NCBI RefSeq assembly: GCF_010122465.1
Contig: NZ_WLZY01000004.1
Coordinates: 248,001 to 312,000, forward strand
DNA length: 64,000 nt
Direction of reading: 5' to 3'
Origin: Phytoactinopolyspora mesophila
GTDB taxonomy: Bacteria > Actinomycetota > Actinomycetes > Jiangellales > Jiangellaceae
Shown one piece after another: positions 18,245 through 55,579 of the stretch (positions are counted from its first letter, which is position 1; each line of letters opens with the position of its first letter). Below the pieces are notes generated by a model. It worked only from the letters and a program-made list of their open reading frames with translations, had not been told where the DNA came from and made no database searches. The position numbers and the translations under genes were made by a program.

Positions 18245-18278
18245 TACTCGAATCGATTCGATCGAATCGATTCGAGTA
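18245..18278. promoter_or_regulatory. Perfect 34-bp palindrome, tandem LacI-type operators
   Basis: The 34 bp from 18245 to 18278 equal their own reverse complement. The core is two head-to-tail copies of the palindromic 14-mer TCGAATCGATTCGA (18248-18261 and 18262-18275), each with the central CG that LacI-family proteins recognise. The site lies between the divergent MFS and LacI genes, 26 bp from the MFS start, so it probably covers the MFS promoter and binds the neighbouring regulator. Confidence 0.75.
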
Positions 18279-19482: not shown

Positions 19483-19540
19483 CCACGGCCCCTTGCGCGG
19501 ACCGAGACAGCCGCCGCGGCTAGCTCGGTACGCTGGCGCC

Positions 19541-20440
19541 GTGGAGGAAACAGATGAGCAGCGCCCCGCCCGGCTCGATGTGGGTGTGGTGGGAACGGGC
19601 CGCGTAGGCGCTGTGCTGGGCGCTGCGCTGGCGCGGTCCGGGCACCGGGTCGTCGCTGGTTACGGTGTGTCGGTCACCAGCCGCAGCCGGGCCGACGCCC
19701 TTCTGCCCGGACTCGAGATGCTGGAGGTGGCGGAGGTTTTCGAACGGGCCGACCTGGTCCTGCTAACCGTTCCGGACGATGTCCTGCCCGGGCTGGTCGA
19801 CGGCCTGGCAAACACCGGGGCGATCCGGTCCGGGCAGTTCGTCGTACACACGAGCGGCAGGTTCGGTGTGTCGGTGCTCGACCCAGCCACCCGTGCCGGA
19901 GGTCTTCCGCTGGCCCTGCATCCGGCGATGACGTTCACCGGCACATCGGTCGATCTACAGCGTCTCGAGGGCGCCACCTTCGGCGTGACAGCGCCGGAGC
20001 TGCTGTGGCCGGTGGCCGAGGCGCTGGTGATCGAGATGGGTTCGGAGCCGGTGCGGGTGGCTGAAGACCAGCGCGCCCTCTACCACGCGGCGCTGACCCA
20101 TGGTGCCAATCACCTCGTCACTCTCGTCAACGATGCGATGGACATGCTGCGCGCGGCCGGTGTTGCGTTGCCGGAGCGCTCGCTGGCGCCATTGCTCTCG
20201 GCAGCGCTCGACAACACCCTGCGTCAAGGGGACGATGCGCTGACCGGGCCGGTGTCAAGGGGCGACTCAGGCACCGTGGCCGGGCACCTCCAGGAGATCG
20301 ACCGGGCGATGCCGGAAGCAACCGCTGTCTACACGGCACTGGCCAGGCGTACCGCCGGCCGAGCGCTGGCCTCCGGCCGGCTCCAGGCCACCGATGCCGA
20401 GCCGCTTCTCGAAATCCTCGCCTCCGACCCACCCGAATGA
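19541..20440 (+). CDS. Rossmann-fold DUF2520 oxidoreductase-like protein
   Basis: The N-terminal half is an NAD(P)-binding Rossmann fold (VGVVGTGRVGAVLGAALARSGHRV) and the C-terminal half is DUF2520 (ALYHAALTHGANHLVTLVNDAMDMLRAAGV). It resembles the ProC/ketopantoate-reductase group and in many actinobacteria sits directly before panC, so a role near pantothenate synthesis is often suspected but not proven. GTG 19541 follows a TACGCT-like box at leaderless distance. The TGA stop lies inside a palindromic element that continues to about 20516. Confidence 0.85.
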   Translation: MEETDEQRPARLDVGVVGTGRVGAVLGAALARSGHRVVAGYGVSVTSRSRADALLPGLEMLEVAEVFERADLVLLTVPDDVLPGLVDGLANTGAIRSGQFVVHTSGRFGVSVLDPATRAGGLPLALHPAMTFTGTSVDLQRLEGATFGVTAPELLWPVAEALVIEMGSEPVRVAEDQRALYHAALTHGANHLVTLVNDAMDMLRAAGVALPERSLAPLLSAALDNTLRQGDDALTGPVSRGDSGTVAGHLQEIDRAMPEATAVYTALARRTAGRALASGRLQATDAEPLLEILASDPPE

Positions 20441-20516
20441 TCATGTTTGGTGGGTTTTCTCGTGCCCTACCATGCCTGCAGTCCTGTTGAGGTGCGAGAA
20501 GTCCTAGGTATGTTCC
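20437..20516. repeat. Palindromic element family A, degenerate copy
   Basis: The left arm ATGATCATGTTTGGTGGG with TTTTCTCG (20437-20462) and the core (ACCATGCCTGCAGTCCTGT) match the intact copies at 47119-47232 and 54157-54248. The right arm has decayed. The element begins at the last codon of the DUF2520 gene and supplies its TGA stop. Confidence 0.75.
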
Positions 20517-20573
20517 GCGTGTTCGTGGCAACAATCGACCCAGGGCACGGCCGGAGCTCACCTCGGTAGTTGC

Positions 20574-32934: not shown

Positions 32935-33005
32935 ATCGTGGTTGGCAGTGCGGGGCGCAAGCCCAGCAGGGGTTTAAGAGCAGGCGCCGAAACTGGTGCC
33001 GAACC

Positions 33006-33041
33006 GTCAAGGGCTCCCACGTGGATGTGGGAGCCCTTGAC
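33006..33041. terminator. Strong hairpin between lsr2 and the FAH gene
   Basis: A perfect 15-bp stem (33006-33020 with 33027-33041; arm GTCAAGGGCTCCCAC) closes a 6-nt loop. It lies between two convergent genes, lsr2 and the FAH hydrolase, and should terminate in both directions. There is no long T-run, as is common for actinobacterial terminators. Confidence 0.8.
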
Positions 33042-33089
33042 GCTTGTCCAGGCCACTGCTCTGGTCCCCGTGGCCAGTCTCGTGCCCAG

Positions 33090-40665: not shown

Positions 40666-40717
40666 TCCTGCGTCCTGCAGAACGAGCCCTGGAGCGCTCG
40701 GTCAGCAGGACGCAGGA
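40666..40717 (+). promoter_or_regulatory. Intercistronic inverted repeat between rhaEW and rhaB
   Basis: Perfect 13-bp arms TCCTGCGTCCTGC (40666-40678) and GCAGGACGCAGGA (40705-40717) flank a 26-nt loop in the 79-bp gap between the two genes. It is followed at once by the rhaB ribosome-binding site (GGTGAGGAGAAGG). Such stems can stabilise the upstream message or lower downstream expression. It lacks a T-run and is probably not a full terminator. Confidence 0.5.
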
Positions 40718-42381: not shown

Positions 42382-42474
42382 TCGGTGATCGTCAGTGGGT
42401 TGTGGTCGTAAGCCCACGTAACAAAGCTCGCAAATCGGTCTCCGCGACGACCACAACCCACTGACGATCACCGA
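42382..42474. repeat. Palindromic element family B, intact copy
   Basis: Perfect 28-bp arms lie at 42382-42409 and 42447-42474 (arm starts TCGGTGATCGTCAGTGGG and ends TTGTGGTCGT) around a 37-nt centre. The right arm ends 12 bp after the Uma2 stop codon. A degenerate copy of the same arms occurs at 53938-54029. Confidence 0.9.
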
Positions 42475-43288: not shown

Positions 43289-46200
43289 TTAGCCGGCCGG
43301 CTGGAGCACCCGGGCCACATAGTCCGACGCCGGTTCGTCCCCGGCGACCCTGCCGTCGGCGACGACGACGACCCGGTCGACCCAATGCAGCGACTGCGGC
43401 CGATGCGTGACCACCAGTGTCGTCCGCCCGGCCGACGCCACCCGCATCGCCTGGTTGACCCGCCGTTCGCTGGCTAGATCGAGGTTGGACGTGGCCTCGT
43501 CGAGAATCAGGATCGACGGGTCATGCAACAGGGCACGTGCGAGGCAGATCAGCTGGCGCTGACCGGCCGACAGTGACCGGCCGCGCTCGGCGACCACGTG
43601 GTGGTACCCGCCGGGCAGCCGCTCGATGAACTCGTGAGCTCCTACGGCGCGCGCGGCGGCCTCGACCTCGGCGTCACTCGCAGTTGCTTTCGCGTAGGCG
43701 ATGTTCTCCCGGACCGTCCGGGAGAACAGGAACGGCTCCTGTGGGACGTAGCCGAGCTGCCGCCGGTAGCTGGTGATGTCGAGCCCGTCCAGTGGCCGGC
43801 CGTCGACCAGCACCGTTCCGGAGGTGGGGTCGTAGAAGCGAGCGATCAGCTTGGACAACGTCGACTTTCCGGCGCCGGTGCGACCCACAAAGGCGACACG
43901 TTGGCCTGGAGGAACGTGCAACCCCACGTCGCGGATGGCGTCGGTGGAGGTGCCGGCATAGCGCAGCCGCACCTGGTGGAAGCGGACGTCGCCGCGCAGT
44001 TGCGGGACCGGTTCGGCGTTGGGCTGGACCGGCGTGGACGTCTCCAGTTCGAGTAACCGGCGGACTCGGACCAAGCCGGTCCGGGCCCGCTGGTACACGT
44101 CGAACACTTGGGAGAGCTGCTGGATCGGCGCGAAGACCTGAGCCAGGTACAGCAGGAACGCGATGAGCGTCCCCAGCGCCAGCGTTCCCGCCTCGATCCG
44201 GGCTGCTCCGACGCCGAGCACCGCGGCGATGGCGAGCACGGACAGCAGTTCGATGGAGGCGACGTAGGCCGACGTGGCGAAATGTCCGCGCAGACTCGCC
44301 GAGACGTACTCGCGGCCGAGCGCTGCGAAGCGCCGCAGGTTGACCGCCTCGCGCCGGAATGCATGGGTGACCCGGATCCCGGCCATGCTTTCCTGGATGT
44401 TGGCGTTGATCAGCGATGTCTGCTCGCGGGCGCGGTCATAGGCTGGGAAGGCGCGGCGTCGGTACCACCACGTGCTCAACGCGGCGAACGGGATGACACC
44501 GAGTACCACGAGCGCCAGCAGCGGGTCGAGCACGACGACCACCACGGACATTCCCGCGAATGTCGTCAGGCTGACGACGGTGTTGATCAGGCCGACCTGG
44601 AAAAGCTGGGCGATGGCGTCCACGTCGGATGTCATCCGGGTCATGATCCGGCCGGCCTGCGTGCGGTCGTAGTAGTCGATTCCTAGCCGTTGCAACTGGC
44701 CGAAGATCCGCACCCGCAGCGCGAGCAGGAGACGTTCGGTGCTGCGCGCGGTCCAGAGCAATCCGGTCCGCTGGTCCCACCACAACACACCGACCAGGCC
44801 GGCGGCGATGGCGCAGATGGTCAGCAGCACCGGTAGCGAACCGGCCAGCATCCCGTCGTCGACGGCACGACGGACCAGCATCGGGTTGAGCAGTACGATC
44901 GCGGCTTCTAGCACGACGAGGCCCAGCCCCACCAGCAGGCCGCCGATGTACGGGCGGATGAACGACGCCAGCCGGAGCGGTCCGGCGGTGCTGCCCTCGC
45001 GGGCGAGGTCGACGCCCGGGGCGTCCTTCGGCGGCGGGAGCTTGGCGATCTGCTCGGCGACCGGTTGCGGGATCTCCATCTCTGCCGGCGGCAGATGGCC
45101 GGTGGCATCTTGACGGGATTCCCACGCCGATGCGGTGGCCTCGAACCTCCCGGAGCGGGCGCGGCTGATCAGACCGGCCGGACCGGCGTCGTCGGCCGCG
45201 TCTTCGGCGTCGCCGAAGAGGTCCCGGTAGAGCGCGGATCGTTGCAGCAGTTCGTGGTGGCTGCCTTGGTCGACGACGCGGCCACCGTCCACAAGGACAA
45301 CCCGGTCGGCCAGGCGCAGAGTCGACTCACGGTAGGCGACCAAGAGAACGGTTCGCTCGGCCAGGAAGGGTTTGAGGTTCGCGTGAATGCGCTCTTCCAC
45401 CTGGACATCGACGGACGACGTGGCGTCGTCGAGCAGAAGGATGTCGGGCTCGGCGAGCAGGGCTCGGGCCAGTGCGACCCGCTGCCGCTGTCCACCCGAG
45501 AGCGTGATTCCTTCTTCTCCGACCATCGTGTCGTACCCGTCGGAGAGTTCGGTGATGAACTCGTCCGCCGCCGCGGCTTTCGCGGCGGCGCGGATTTCGT
45601 CGTCGGTGGCTTCGGGCCGGCCATAGGCGATGTTTGCGCTGATCGTGTCGGAGAACAGGAAACTGTTCTCGAACACGACACCGATCCGGCTCCGCAGTTC
45701 TGGCAGCGACCACCGCCGCACGTCGATGCCGTCGACGGTGATGGTTCCGGCGTCGGGGTCGAAGAACCGGGGCAGCATGGTCAGCGCCGTGGACTTGCCA
45801 CACCCCGAGGGTCCGACCAGCGCTATTGTCTCCCCGGCCGCGACGTCGAGACTGAAACCGTTCATGACCTGGTGACCGTCGCCGTCGGCGTAGGCGAAAC
45901 GGACCTGATGGAACGACACCGCACCGCCGTCAGAACTGACGTCGACCGGTCGGGCCGGTTCGGTGATCTCGGCTTGCAGATCGAGTAGTTCCCCGACCCG
46001 CTCCGTCGCCGCCCGGCACATGGGCGCGTTGGTCAGGACCATGCCGGCGATCCGGGCGACGCCGACCAGCTCGGCGAGGTAACCGGTGCAGGCGAGGAAC
46101 ACGCCGATGGTGAGATGGCCGTTGAGAACCAGGATGCCGCCGACCAACAACACCAGCACCTGCCCGGCCAACGGCGCACCCTGCAACGACGCCATGAAAG

Positions 46201-47014
46201 GCGCCCGGAGCCGAACCGCGCGGACCCGGGCGGCGAACATGTCCAGTAGTGAGTCGTGCAGTCGGTCTGTCTCGGCCGGCTGCTGGCCGAAGGCGCGCAC
46301 CACCCGGACGCCGGTGATGGTCTCTTCGACCCGGGTGGTCATCTGGGCTTCGCGCTGCTGCGCGTCCCAACCGGCGGCGTAGACCTTGCGTCGTTGCCGA
46401 TTGGTCACGGCGAACACCGCGATGATCACCGCGAGGACGAGCGTCGCGACAGGCGGCGACAGCGTGAACATGATCGCGATGGCCAGCGTGGCCGAAAGCA
46501 ATGAGCCGGCCACTTGCGGGATCCACATCAGCAGCATGTGAACGTAGCGCAGGTCGCTGCTGATCCGGGACACGAGCTGACCACTCTGCAGCTGTGCATG
46601 TCCGGTGAAGTCGAGGCGCTGCAGGGTGTCGTAGACGTCGAGGCGGATGTCGTCCTGGATGCGGAACGCGGTCTTGCCCCCGATGTAGCGCCAGCCGGTG
46701 GACAGCAGGAACCGGGCGATCGCGATCGAGACGAGCAACACCAGCAGTGGCATCAACGGTGCCGTGCCGTCGATGATGGCGTGATCGATGACCCTGCCCT
46801 GGGTGACCGGCACGAGCGCGACCGTGCCAGCCCAGAACAGGGCTAGCAGAATGGAGACGAGCAACGTGCGCTTGTGCTTGAGTAAGTAGGGCTCGAGCCG
46901 GCGGAACGTTCCGAGGTGGCTGCGGTTGGAGCCTTGCGGCCTTGAGGGAGTGGGCGAATCTGAAGGTAGCGGGTTTGACGGGCCTGAAGGATTTGCCGAT
47001 TGGCGGCGCGGCAC
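43289..47014 (-). CDS. Fused ABC exporter, two transmembrane/ATPase modules in one chain
   Basis: The 1241-residue protein contains TMD1 (about 40-330), NBD1 (about 365-600), a linker, TMD2 (about 690-970) and NBD2 (about 1000-1235). NBD2 is canonical: GRTGAGKST, LSAGQRQLICLARALL, ILILDEATSNLD, VVTHRPQSL. NBD1 has GPSGCGKST and LSGGQRQRVALARALL, but Walker B is ILLLDDATSSVD (Asp instead of the catalytic Glu) and the H-loop is LLVAYRESTL (Tyr instead of His). This is a heterodimeric exporter fused into one polypeptide with one degenerate ATP site, like M. tuberculosis Rv0194. The substrate could be a drug, lipid or peptide and is unknown. Confidence 0.93.
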   Translation of the reverse strand: MPRRQSANPSGPSNPLPSDSPTPSRPQGSNRSHLGTFRRLEPYLLKHKRTLLVSILLALFWAGTVALVPVTQGRVIDHAIIDGTAPLMPLLVLLVSIAIARFLLSTGWRYIGGKTAFRIQDDIRLDVYDTLQRLDFTGHAQLQSGQLVSRISSDLRYVHMLLMWIPQVAGSLLSATLAIAIMFTLSPPVATLVLAVIIAVFAVTNRQRRKVYAAGWDAQQREAQMTTRVEETITGVRVVRAFGQQPAETDRLHDSLLDMFAARVRAVRLRAPFMASLQGAPLAGQVLVLLVGGILVLNGHLTIGVFLACTGYLAELVGVARIAGMVLTNAPMCRAATERVGELLDLQAEITEPARPVDVSSDGGAVSFHQVRFAYADGDGHQVMNGFSLDVAAGETIALVGPSGCGKSTALTMLPRFFDPDAGTITVDGIDVRRWSLPELRSRIGVVFENSFLFSDTISANIAYGRPEATDDEIRAAAKAAAADEFITELSDGYDTMVGEEGITLSGGQRQRVALARALLAEPDILLLDDATSSVDVQVEERIHANLKPFLAERTVLLVAYRESTLRLADRVVLVDGGRVVDQGSHHELLQRSALYRDLFGDAEDAADDAGPAGLISRARSGRFEATASAWESRQDATGHLPPAEMEIPQPVAEQIAKLPPPKDAPGVDLAREGSTAGPLRLASFIRPYIGGLLVGLGLVVLEAAIVLLNPMLVRRAVDDGMLAGSLPVLLTICAIAAGLVGVLWWDQRTGLLWTARSTERLLLALRVRIFGQLQRLGIDYYDRTQAGRIMTRMTSDVDAIAQLFQVGLINTVVSLTTFAGMSVVVVVLDPLLALVVLGVIPFAALSTWWYRRRAFPAYDRAREQTSLINANIQESMAGIRVTHAFRREAVNLRRFAALGREYVSASLRGHFATSAYVASIELLSVLAIAAVLGVGAARIEAGTLALGTLIAFLLYLAQVFAPIQQLSQVFDVYQRARTGLVRVRRLLELETSTPVQPNAEPVPQLRGDVRFHQVRLRYAGTSTDAIRDVGLHVPPGQRVAFVGRTGAGKSTLSKLIARFYDPTSGTVLVDGRPLDGLDITSYRRQLGYVPQEPFLFSRTVRENIAYAKATASDAEVEAAARAVGAHEFIERLPGGYHHVVAERGRSLSAGQRQLICLARALLHDPSILILDEATSNLDLASERRVNQAMRVASAGRTTLVVTHRPQSLHWVDRVVVVADGRVAGDEPASDYVARVLQPAG

Positions 47015-47118: not shown

Positions 47119-47232
47119 CCTCACCCCACCTAGATGATCATGTTTGGTGGGTTTCCCCGTGCGTCAATAGGCCTACAGGCATGGTGACGCCCGAGAAAAC
47201 CCACCAAACATGATCATCTAGGTGGGGTGAGG
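47119..47232. repeat. Palindromic element family A, best copy (36-bp arms)
   Basis: Perfect inverted arms span 47119-47154 and 47197-47232, with a 42-nt centre. The arm contains CCCCACCTAGATGATCATG then TTTGGTGGGTTT. The element lies 10 bp beyond the gpmA stop and before the exporter gene. Its centre matches the copy at 54157-54248 in inverted orientation. It encodes no protein. Confidence 0.9.
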
Positions 47233-47242
47233 AAGAGCAGCG

Positions 47243-47989
47243 TCAGCGGCCCTGGTTCTTGACCGCTTCGATCGCGGCGGCCGCAGCGTCGGGGTCGAGG
47301 TACTGTCCGCCCGTGGTGACCGGCCGCATCGACTCGTCGAGTTCATACAGCAGTGGCACACCGGTGGGGATGTTCAGCCCGGCGATGGCGTCGTCGCTGA
47401 TGCCGTCCAGGTGCTTCACGAGCGCACGCAGTGAGTTCCCATGGGCGACGACCGCCACCGTCTGTCCACGTCGCAGGTCCGGCACGATCGCGTCGTACCA
47501 ATACGGCAGGAAGCGCTGCAGGACGTCCTTCAAGCACTCGGTGCGAGGCATGACTTCCGACGGGAGGTCCGCGTAGCGGGCATCTCCGACCTGCGAGAAC
47601 TCGTCGTCGTCAGCGATGGGCGGCGGCGGGGTGTCGTACGAGCGGCGCCAGAGCATGAACTGCTCCTCGCCGAACTCTTCCAAAGTCTGCTTCTTGTCTT
47701 TGCCCTGCAGCGCGCCGTAGTGGCGCTCGTTGAGCCGCCAGGAACGACGGACCGGAATCCAGTGCCGGTCTGCGACATCAAGAGTGATGTTGGCGGTGCG
47801 AATGGCCCGCCGGAGCACGCTGGTGTGCACGACGTCGGGAAGGACGCCACGCTCGGTCAGCAGTTCGCCGCCACGCCGTGCCTCGGCCTCGCCGGTAGCG
47901 GTCAGGTCGACGTCGACCCAGCCGGTGAAGAGGTTCTTCGCGTTCCAATCGCTCTCGCCGTGACGGAGCAGCACCAGACGGTAGGTCAT
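47243..47989 (-). CDS. gpmA: 2,3-bisphosphoglycerate-dependent phosphoglycerate mutase
   Basis: GpmA interconverts 3- and 2-phosphoglycerate in glycolysis and gluconeogenesis. The 248-residue protein begins [26 protein letters not shown], containing the phospho-histidine of the RHGE motif, and also has [25 protein letters not shown] and [17 protein letters not shown] with the second catalytic His. It lies next to ybjN and mshA, the usual actinobacterial order gpm-ybjN-mshA near phoU-senX3-regX3. Confidence 0.97.
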
Positions 47990-54156: not shown

Positions 54157-54248
54157 CTAGATGATCATGTTTGGTGGGTTTTCTCGCGCCTCACCATGCC
54201 TACAGTCCTGTCGACGCACGAGGAAACCCACCAAACATGATCATCTAG
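54157..54248. repeat. Palindromic element family A, second intact copy
   Basis: Arms at 54157-54181 and 54224-54248 (CTAGATGATCATG then TTTGGTGGGTTT) are perfect over 25 bp, and pairing continues inwards with one G-T wobble (TTCTCG with CGAGGA). The centre (TCACCATGCCTACAGTCCTG) resembles the other family A copies. The TAG at the outer end is the stop codon of the Gfo/Idh/MocA gene (54245-54247, minus strand). Confidence 0.9.
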
Positions 54249-55579
54249 GTGGGGATGGAGATCAGGTCGCTGATCCGGACTGGGAGGCCCGTGGCGAAGG
54301 AACGGTTGGCGGCGGCGCCGGTCAGCATCGCGTAGGCGCCGTCGACCGGCCCGGCGGCGCGGCCGAGTGGATCCGGCTCCCGAGTGCCCGCGAACACGTC
54401 GGCCAGCAGCCGTCGATCGCCGCCACCGTGCCCGCCGCCCCCTTCCTCCTCGAGCCCGATCGGCCGCGGCGTCTCCCACAACGGTCGCAGCGTGAGCCGG
54501 GTCTGGTCGATGGGTTCGTTGCCCGGCTGGTCGGCACCGGCGGCATTGGGATCGATGACGTCACCGCTGACGTAGGAGCGCTCGACGACGTCCAGCTCCA
54601 GCCTCCCCCGCGTGCCGTTGAAGCCGACCCGGTAGCCCTCCCACGGCGAGTAGGCAGTGAGGTGGTAGCTGAGGGTGGCGCCAGTGTCGTATCGCACGAG
54701 CACGGCCATGTCGTCCTCGATGCTGATGCCGTCGGTGAAGACGTTGCGGTCTCGGATGTAGCCGTCCTCGTGCTCGGCGTCCAGATAGAGTGCCTTCAGC
54801 TCGGGTGTCGCGGCCAGGTCGATCGCCCAGGGGTCCGTGGCGATGTCCGGGCTGCCGTGACTCCGGTGCGAGCGAACCTTCTCGCCCCGGCGCTCAGCGT
54901 TGTCGCTGCCGTAGAAGCGCAGGTCACCGAAGCCGAAGACGGTCTGGGGAACGGCGCCGAGCCACCAGTTGACCAGGTCGAAGTGGTGGCTGGACTTGTG
55001 GACCATCAAGCCACCGGAATTGCGCTTGTCCCGGTGCCAGCGACGGAAATAGTCCGCCCCATGCCTGGTATCGAGTAGCCACTCGAAATGCACTGACTGC
55101 ACGTCACCGATCGCGCCGGAGGAGATGAGCTCCTTGACGGCGCTGTTCCGCGGCGCGTACCGGTAGTTGAACGTCACCGTCAGTTGCCGTCCGGTCCGGG
55201 CTTGCGCATCGAGGATTTGCTGACACTTCTCTTCATCCGTGGTCAGCGGCTTCTCGGTGATGACGTCGCGGCCGTGCTCCATCGCCGTGACGATGTACCG
55301 GTGATGGGTGCGGTCGACGCTTGTCACGATCACCGCATCAACGCGCTGCTCGTCCAGCATGCGCACGAAGTCCGCCGGGCCGTAGCAAGGCACCGGCCCA
55401 GCGCCGAAATCCGTCGCGAACCAGCCGTTGTGGTGGTCCATCCGGGTCTGGTTCACGTCGCACAACGCGACCAGTTCGCCGTCGTCGCTGTGCTCTTCCA
55501 GCAGGGCCCGGGTGAACATCTTGGAGCGACTCCCGAGGCCGACTACGGCATAGCGTGCTTTCGGGCGGAGACTGGTCAT
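54245..55579 (-). CDS. Gfo/Idh/MocA-family oxidoreductase
   Basis: The 444-residue protein has an N-terminal NAD(P)-binding fold (RYAVVGLGSRSKMFTRALLEEH), the EKPLTTDEEKCQQIL motif and a C-terminal alpha/beta domain. Members oxidise or epimerise sugars and sugar acids. It starts 4 bp after the UxuB-like gene and is the third gene of the hexuronate operon, so a uronic-acid-derived substrate is likely. The last codons and the TAG stop (Pro-Thr-stop) are contributed by a palindromic repeat element, so the C-terminus may have been changed by its insertion. Confidence 0.9.
   Translation of the reverse strand: MTSLRPKARYAVVGLGSRSKMFTRALLEEHSDDGELVALCDVNQTRMDHHNGWFATDFGAGPVPCYGPADFVRMLDEQRVDAVIVTSVDRTHHRYIVTAMEHGRDVITEKPLTTDEEKCQQILDAQARTGRQLTVTFNYRYAPRNSAVKELISSGAIGDVQSVHFEWLLDTRHGADYFRRWHRDKRNSGGLMVHKSSHHFDLVNWWLGAVPQTVFGFGDLRFYGSDNAERRGEKVRSHRSHGSPDIATDPWAIDLAATPELKALYLDAEHEDGYIRDRNVFTDGISIEDDMAVLVRYDTGATLSYHLTAYSPWEGYRVGFNGTRGRLELDVVERSYVSGDVIDPNAAGADQPGNEPIDQTRLTLRPLWETPRPIGLEEEGGGGHGGGDRRLLADVFAGTREPDPLGRAAGPVDGAYAMLTGAAANRSFATGLPVRISDLISIPT

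Follow-up and report, generated by a model that had tools for sequence, protein, structure and literature searches.

Palindromic repeats that carry a GTAG or a CGTC tag are the nearest described concept to the elements considered here (PMC3733652). The survey dealing with both groups names no actinobacterium, treats the CGTC repeats as apparently lacking a dedicated transposase and places the Rickettsia palindromic elements (RPE) with them (PMC3733652), and it is RPE that provide the precedent for in-frame insertion of a palindrome (PMC10969869). The present study concerns a dispersed palindrome, family A, first met in a 64,000-nucleotide stretch of Phytoactinopolyspora mesophila DNA ('the window': contig NZ_WLZY01000004.1, positions 248,001 to 312,000). 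No earlier description of repeats with its TGATCRT foot was found in the open-access literature.

Anatomy of the copies in the window

The window comes from a 6.5-Mb genome of Phytoactinopolyspora type (Jiangellaceae). The inverted repeat at 47119-47232 has arms of 56 nt, 2 nt apart and 89% complementary, with its centre at 47175/47176. A preliminary description made from the sequence of the window had given it perfect arms of 36 bp and a size of about 90-114 bp, and had counted three places with the same palindrome. The outer 36 bp of the arms are indeed perfect, but the 11 bp farthest out on either side belong to this copy alone; the perfect family arm there is therefore about 25 bp, and the unit that is repeated is 92 bp long with the layout C-Y-R-R-ATGATCATG ... 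CATGATCAT-Y-Y-R-G (Table 1). Two of the three places are full copies; the third is half-decayed, its left arm being intact and its right arm decayed. That the 47119 copy is opposite in orientation to the other two was borne out by the ACCATG half-core. A 21-mer of the arm occurs five times in the window, where shuffles give an expectation of 0.00.

As had been surmised, the element encodes no transposase, nor any other gene of its own, and is not a named repeat: it has no Rfam match above the gathering score, and nothing matching it was found in the open-access literature. Copies may supply the stop codons of adjoining genes. The CTA at 54245-54247, the last bases of the 54157 copy, is the TAG stop of a minus-strand gene (54245-55579), and the gene 19493-20440 stops at the TGA of 20438-20440, within the half-decayed copy.

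Table 1. Features of the window (strand of family A copies: orientation with the ACCATG half-core on the left)
Feature	Position	Strand	Comment
Family A palindrome, full 92-bp copy	47130..47221	-	
Private outer stem, left arm	47119..47129	.	CCTCACCCCAC; pairs with 47222-47232; copy-specific, not family
Private outer stem, right arm	47222..47232	.	GTGGGGTGAGG; of the 47119 copy
Family A palindrome, second full copy	54157..54248	+	
Family A copy	20433..20524	+	Left arm intact, right arm decayed
85-bp palindrome	42386..42470	.	Other family of the TGATCRT superfamily; foot TGATCGTC
Phosphoglycerate mutase-like gene (His_Phos_1, gpm)	47243..47989	-	Stop 10 bp from the 47119 palindrome
ABC transporter fusion gene, downstream	43289..47014	-	P. 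halophila has the same gene order without the palindrome

Family A has company. The 85-bp palindrome with foot TGATCGTC has perfect 28-bp arms at 42382-42409 and 42447-42474, and more copies of its family were seen in three other loci (L218, L223 and L227). Another type, with GCGTCCTGCA near the foot, is present at 40666-40717 of the window and, in this genome and a congener, at L219:13665-13712 and L255:15726-15845; it is possibly a second tagged family. Two near-perfect inverted repeats at 33002-33045 and 18245-18278 have no TGATC foot and are probably terminator or operator sites.

Copy number and species-specific arms

Genome-wide there are 120 matches to the arm with 0-2 mismatches, as against 0 for a reversed control, and at least 57 distinct places were extracted. 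The worry that there might be no further copies, or that those in the window merely reflect duplication of neighbouring genes, can thus be put aside, the flanks of the copies being unrelated. The search was extended, as had been proposed, to the named relatives P. halotolerans, P. alkaliphila, P. halophila and P. endophytica. An alignment of 107 copies from five species, selected for having both feet nearly intact, is free of gaps, every copy being exactly 92 bp. Invariant or nearly so are the foot ATGATCATGT, most of TTTTCTCG and the tip CTGCAG. The ends, C-Y-R-R followed by ATGATCATG, are paired on both sides in the 107 copies and so are not an unpaired GTAG end tag, and a CGTC terminal tag is absent from the alignment.

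Columns 15-21 harbour an arm module of 7-8 nt that differs by species and is re-paired on the opposite arm: TTTGGTGG in the window genome, TGAAGTGG in P. halotolerans, TAAACCAT in P. alkaliphila and TTTGGTAC in P. halophila. Double-change cells number 488, compared with 200 +/- 22 after shuffling and 20-92 when the arms are slid; paired cells amount to 88.6% (32-44% when slid) and covariation is 0.252 versus 0.119. Since arm-to-arm copying of DNA can also yield covariation in a palindrome, these values prove paired change and not RNA function. Mosaic copies, whose two arms carry different modules, occur in P. halotolerans and P. alkaliphila. An exact search of genome and viral collections with a 22-mer of the arm came back empty because that arm variant is species-specific, and no plasmid or phage relatives of the element were found on searching. 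A long G run followed by N in one locus (L259 of G004, about 2285-2400) is likely an assembly artefact.

Gene 3' ends, orthologous slots and the folded transcript

Gene context was provided, for 56 placed copies, by a codon-usage gene caller written for this analysis. Convergent gaps, which make up 17% of gaps, hold 21 of the 56 (P = 2e-4), and divergent gaps hold four, a depletion with P = 0.02 when reckoned by gaps and 3e-5 when reckoned by length. The gene-end location suspected from the window holds for the genome at large: 70% of copies are 30 bp or less from a stop codon, versus 19% of random intergenic placements. In about 20 family A copies the stop codon is supplied by the element itself. 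Most orthologous proteins have their ends only a few residues apart, so genes are not seriously truncated, and no in-frame insertion of family A in coding genes was found in the window genome.

Are the same gene ends occupied in different species? The comparison covered 30 genes that have a family A copy at their end, with 70 orthologues from three relatives. Family A is at the same gene end in 12 of the 70, each time with the module of its own species, and another TGATCAT palindrome is at about 8 (counts after inspection), the remainder having neither; the offset from the stop is often unlike between orthologous slots. Judging from the number of copies per gene, a shared slot would be expected by chance at a rate of about 1-2%. 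On these sequence comparisons the shared slots are read as repeated use of the same sites, though the slots that keep the element across species could instead reflect shared ancestry with concerted change. The comparison with empty sites that had been advised is illustrated by the gpm slot, where P. halophila keeps the downstream sequence and a promoter-like motif with the palindrome missing and has family A elsewhere in its genome. Jiangella and P. endophytica have short hairpins at that slot instead.

Such a distribution invites the thought that the palindrome is the host's own 3'-end signal, a terminator or mRNA-protecting hairpin that is inherited vertically and homogenised within each species by gene conversion. 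The orthologous ends that keep the element with the local module, the closeness to stops, the strong depletion in divergent gaps and the mosaic arms within single P. halotolerans copies all fit with this, but most orthologous ends are without the element and, where it is present, offsets differ. The transcript of the 47119 copy is predicted to fold with -90 to -96 kcal/mol (z about -16), with a C-rich flank before the element and a G-rich one after; no U-tract directly follows the hairpin, which makes an intrinsic terminator unlikely. An alternative terminator, CCCACC...GGTGGGTTTT, was considered and rejected as not conserved across species, its CCCACC/GGTGGG pairing not being kept where the module is another. 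With, in addition, sister elements standing in frame inside coding genes (see below), a host-owned signal seems rather unlikely to be what family A is. Stable 3' hairpins are in general plausible as barriers to 3' exonucleases or as targets of RNase III, and a multi-copy RNA hairpin, which the preliminary description had mooted, may be possible as a consequence of position.

A wider set of palindromes with a common foot

Within 400 kb of this genome, TGATCR is present in the arm of 22 of the 42 hairpins with arms of at least 14 bp, and in a congener the figure is 18 of 40; these hairpins form several families. Of 297 Actinomycetes genomes, 93 have the foot pair TGATCATG-N20-80-CATGATCA, with controls giving 0 or 1. 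This genome has 145 occurrences of the pair and a relative as many as 194. Where another genus gives a single match, this may be due to chance within coding sequence. Genera with many copies (e.g. G168, G257 and G050) have arms of their own, mostly beside gene 3' ends, and again a left flank that is C-rich and a right flank that is G-rich. Jiangella has two families of fixed length, 57 and 49 bp. The 20-bp arms are conserved in G168 (L378, L396-L403) and G050 (L411-L415), and the loops vary in length and sequence from copy to copy, in contrast to the fixed-length families of Jiangellaceae. The common foot, structure and location suggest that all TGATCRT palindromes constitute one mobile superfamily.

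Short conserved TGATCATG words standing as inverted pairs at gene ends recall the DNA-uptake-type signals, doubling as terminators, of Neisseria or Pasteurellaceae. That they are such signals is extremely improbable, given that 39 of 62 word sites are in the 12% of sequence that is non-coding, that members of a family have far more in common than the word and that nothing points to uptake.

Insertion, and what might perform it

Alignment of the flanks of Jiangella elements across species caught insertion by its results. One G015 element (L424, around 1501-1557) is inside a gene and missing from nine other species, the differences in site length, where computed from matched segments, being 84, 69 or 75 bp; the reading frame stays open through the element. 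A second (L420, around 1501-1557, also in G015) is inside a gene that by sequence looks tilS-like; three species have it, with different arms, and four lack it. In both genes the element is translated in the same frame, as VDHGE...LHDQQ. Two intergenic sites also show presence and absence, one with a plain hairpin replacing the element. This is direct evidence of insertion in the sister families. Family A itself has presumably inserted likewise, its insertion not having been caught between very close genomes and the polymorphism evidence coming from these sister families with the common foot. The in-frame palindromes were seen at loci L420, L424, L475 and L476.

No target-site duplication was recognised; flanks are too diverged, and some families have inverted flank complementarity instead. 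In sister families the immediate flanks are complementary in a copy-specific way, most strongly in G003 (8.55 of 12 matched versus 5.46 when shuffled, with a maximum of 6.65 in 1000); in this genome's family A the effect is weak, and the family A of relatives lacks it. Both insertion into hairpins already present and snap-back copying of a flank would generate such complementarity, and the private 11-bp stem of the 47119 copy may be a case. Insertion into the loop of pre-existing hairpins was not adopted for family A, where flank complementarity is weak or absent.

The preliminary description had supposed a REP- or MITE-like element moved in trans. Mobility in trans is supported by the occupied and empty sites in the Jiangella sister families; the kinship with REP is not, and the parent insertion sequence of a MITE was not found among the loci of copy pairs read. 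As palindromic, multi-copy elements at gene ends, with a conserved foot tag and several families per genome, they do resemble REP/REPIN elements mobilised by a RAYT (Y1 transposase). However, the RAYT signature Y1_Tnp (PF01797), for which a search had been recommended, is absent from all Jiangellaceae genomes tested: it was found in none of the 22 genomes of a first set, the window genome included, and is absent from 16 of the 17 element-carrying genomes of a second, partly overlapping set, the same search being positive in 5 of 14 known genomes. Together with the lack of a single-ended GTAG or CGTC tag, and a length of 92 bp versus 20-40 bp, this makes such an origin very improbable; for Jiangellaceae, where membership is rejected on the missing enzyme and the missing GTAG tag, it is already refuted, barring a Y1 enzyme so diverged that PF01797 misses it. 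G235 (L482, L483), the only element-carrying actinomycete in which Y1_Tnp was found, has two such genes. A search for Y2_Tnp (Y2/IS91) gave zero matches but is uninformative, its positive control having been silent too.

A MITE of the classical kind, descended from a DDE insertion sequence that has long terminal inverted repeats, would share with these elements a size of 50-120 bp, fixed length, in-trans mobility and insertion polymorphism. We nevertheless think it unlikely. A full-length parent with the same ends was not found among the loci of copy pairs read (the scan for insertion sequences not being exhaustive), pairs 0.3-1.6 kb apart proving to be two distinct copies flanked or separated by ordinary genes, no target duplication was recognised, and the palindrome is continuous to its centre.

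Proposed explanation

Family A itself is dispersed in many copies of fixed length, has paired arms that are specific to the species and is concentrated at gene 3' ends, and in the Jiangella sister families the presence or absence of elements site by site extends to in-frame insertion into coding genes. In our judgement it is probably a mobile DNA hairpin that is non-autonomous, keeps a fixed length of 92 bp and belongs, as one family among others, to an actinomycete superfamily with a TGATCRT foot. An enzyme encoded elsewhere would recognise the conserved foot and the family-specific arm and would insert copies in trans, re-using the same 3'-end slots; neither that enzyme nor a full-length parent was found. 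Species-specific arms would then arise as a new variant amplifies and replaces older copies. More speculatively, the transcript of a copy in a 3' UTR would form a hairpin of great stability, at which 3' exonucleases could be halted or RNase III could cut, and protection or cleavage of that kind would explain why copies are tolerated or kept.

A bolder proposal, offered tentatively and with doubt somewhat outweighing conviction, is that the TGATCRT palindromes rank, alongside the GTAG and CGTC repeats, as a third great superfamily of mobile palindromes with a tag. They would occur widely among Actinomycetes, and the enzyme that moves them would belong neither with the Y1 transposases nor with the recognised transposases of insertion sequences; its recognition of the exchangeable arm module would drive the species-wide rewriting, and insertion would be directed to 3'-end hairpin slots.

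The concept of tagged palindromic mobile repeats is hereby extended to Actinomycetes, a group for which the open-access papers searched gave no earlier report. The polymorphic sites of Jiangella and the species-specific arm modules make both the enzyme and its specificity searchable, and the in-frame insertions are a second case, outside Rickettsia, of palindrome insertion changing proteins.

Comparison with known systems

MITEs (Correia/NEMIS, RUP and others) are, like these elements, small, non-coding and mobile in trans; here neither a parent insertion sequence nor a target duplication was seen, and the palindrome continues to its tip. ERIC sequences are enterobacterial, and we know of no sequence relation between them and the present elements. 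They too are palindromes of about 100 bp near gene 3' ends, whereas here there is a superfamily with a common foot and exchangeable arms. GTAG-tagged REP/REPIN elements with their RAYT share with the present ones tagged hairpins, several families per genome, mobility in trans and an extragenic location between convergent or unidirectional genes, but the elements here are longer (47-118 bp), their tag stands paired on the two sides, and Jiangellaceae have no Y1 transposase.

The likeness to RPE takes in several families of palindromes of similar size with no dedicated transposase known, and in-frame insertion in unrelated genes with a conserved encoded peptide (here in two genes, in the Jiangella sister families). 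The differences are the phylum, the foot, which here is TGATCRT and present in both arms where RPE have CGTC at one end, and, in the elements described here, a position mostly at gene 3' ends with arm modules that are species-wide.
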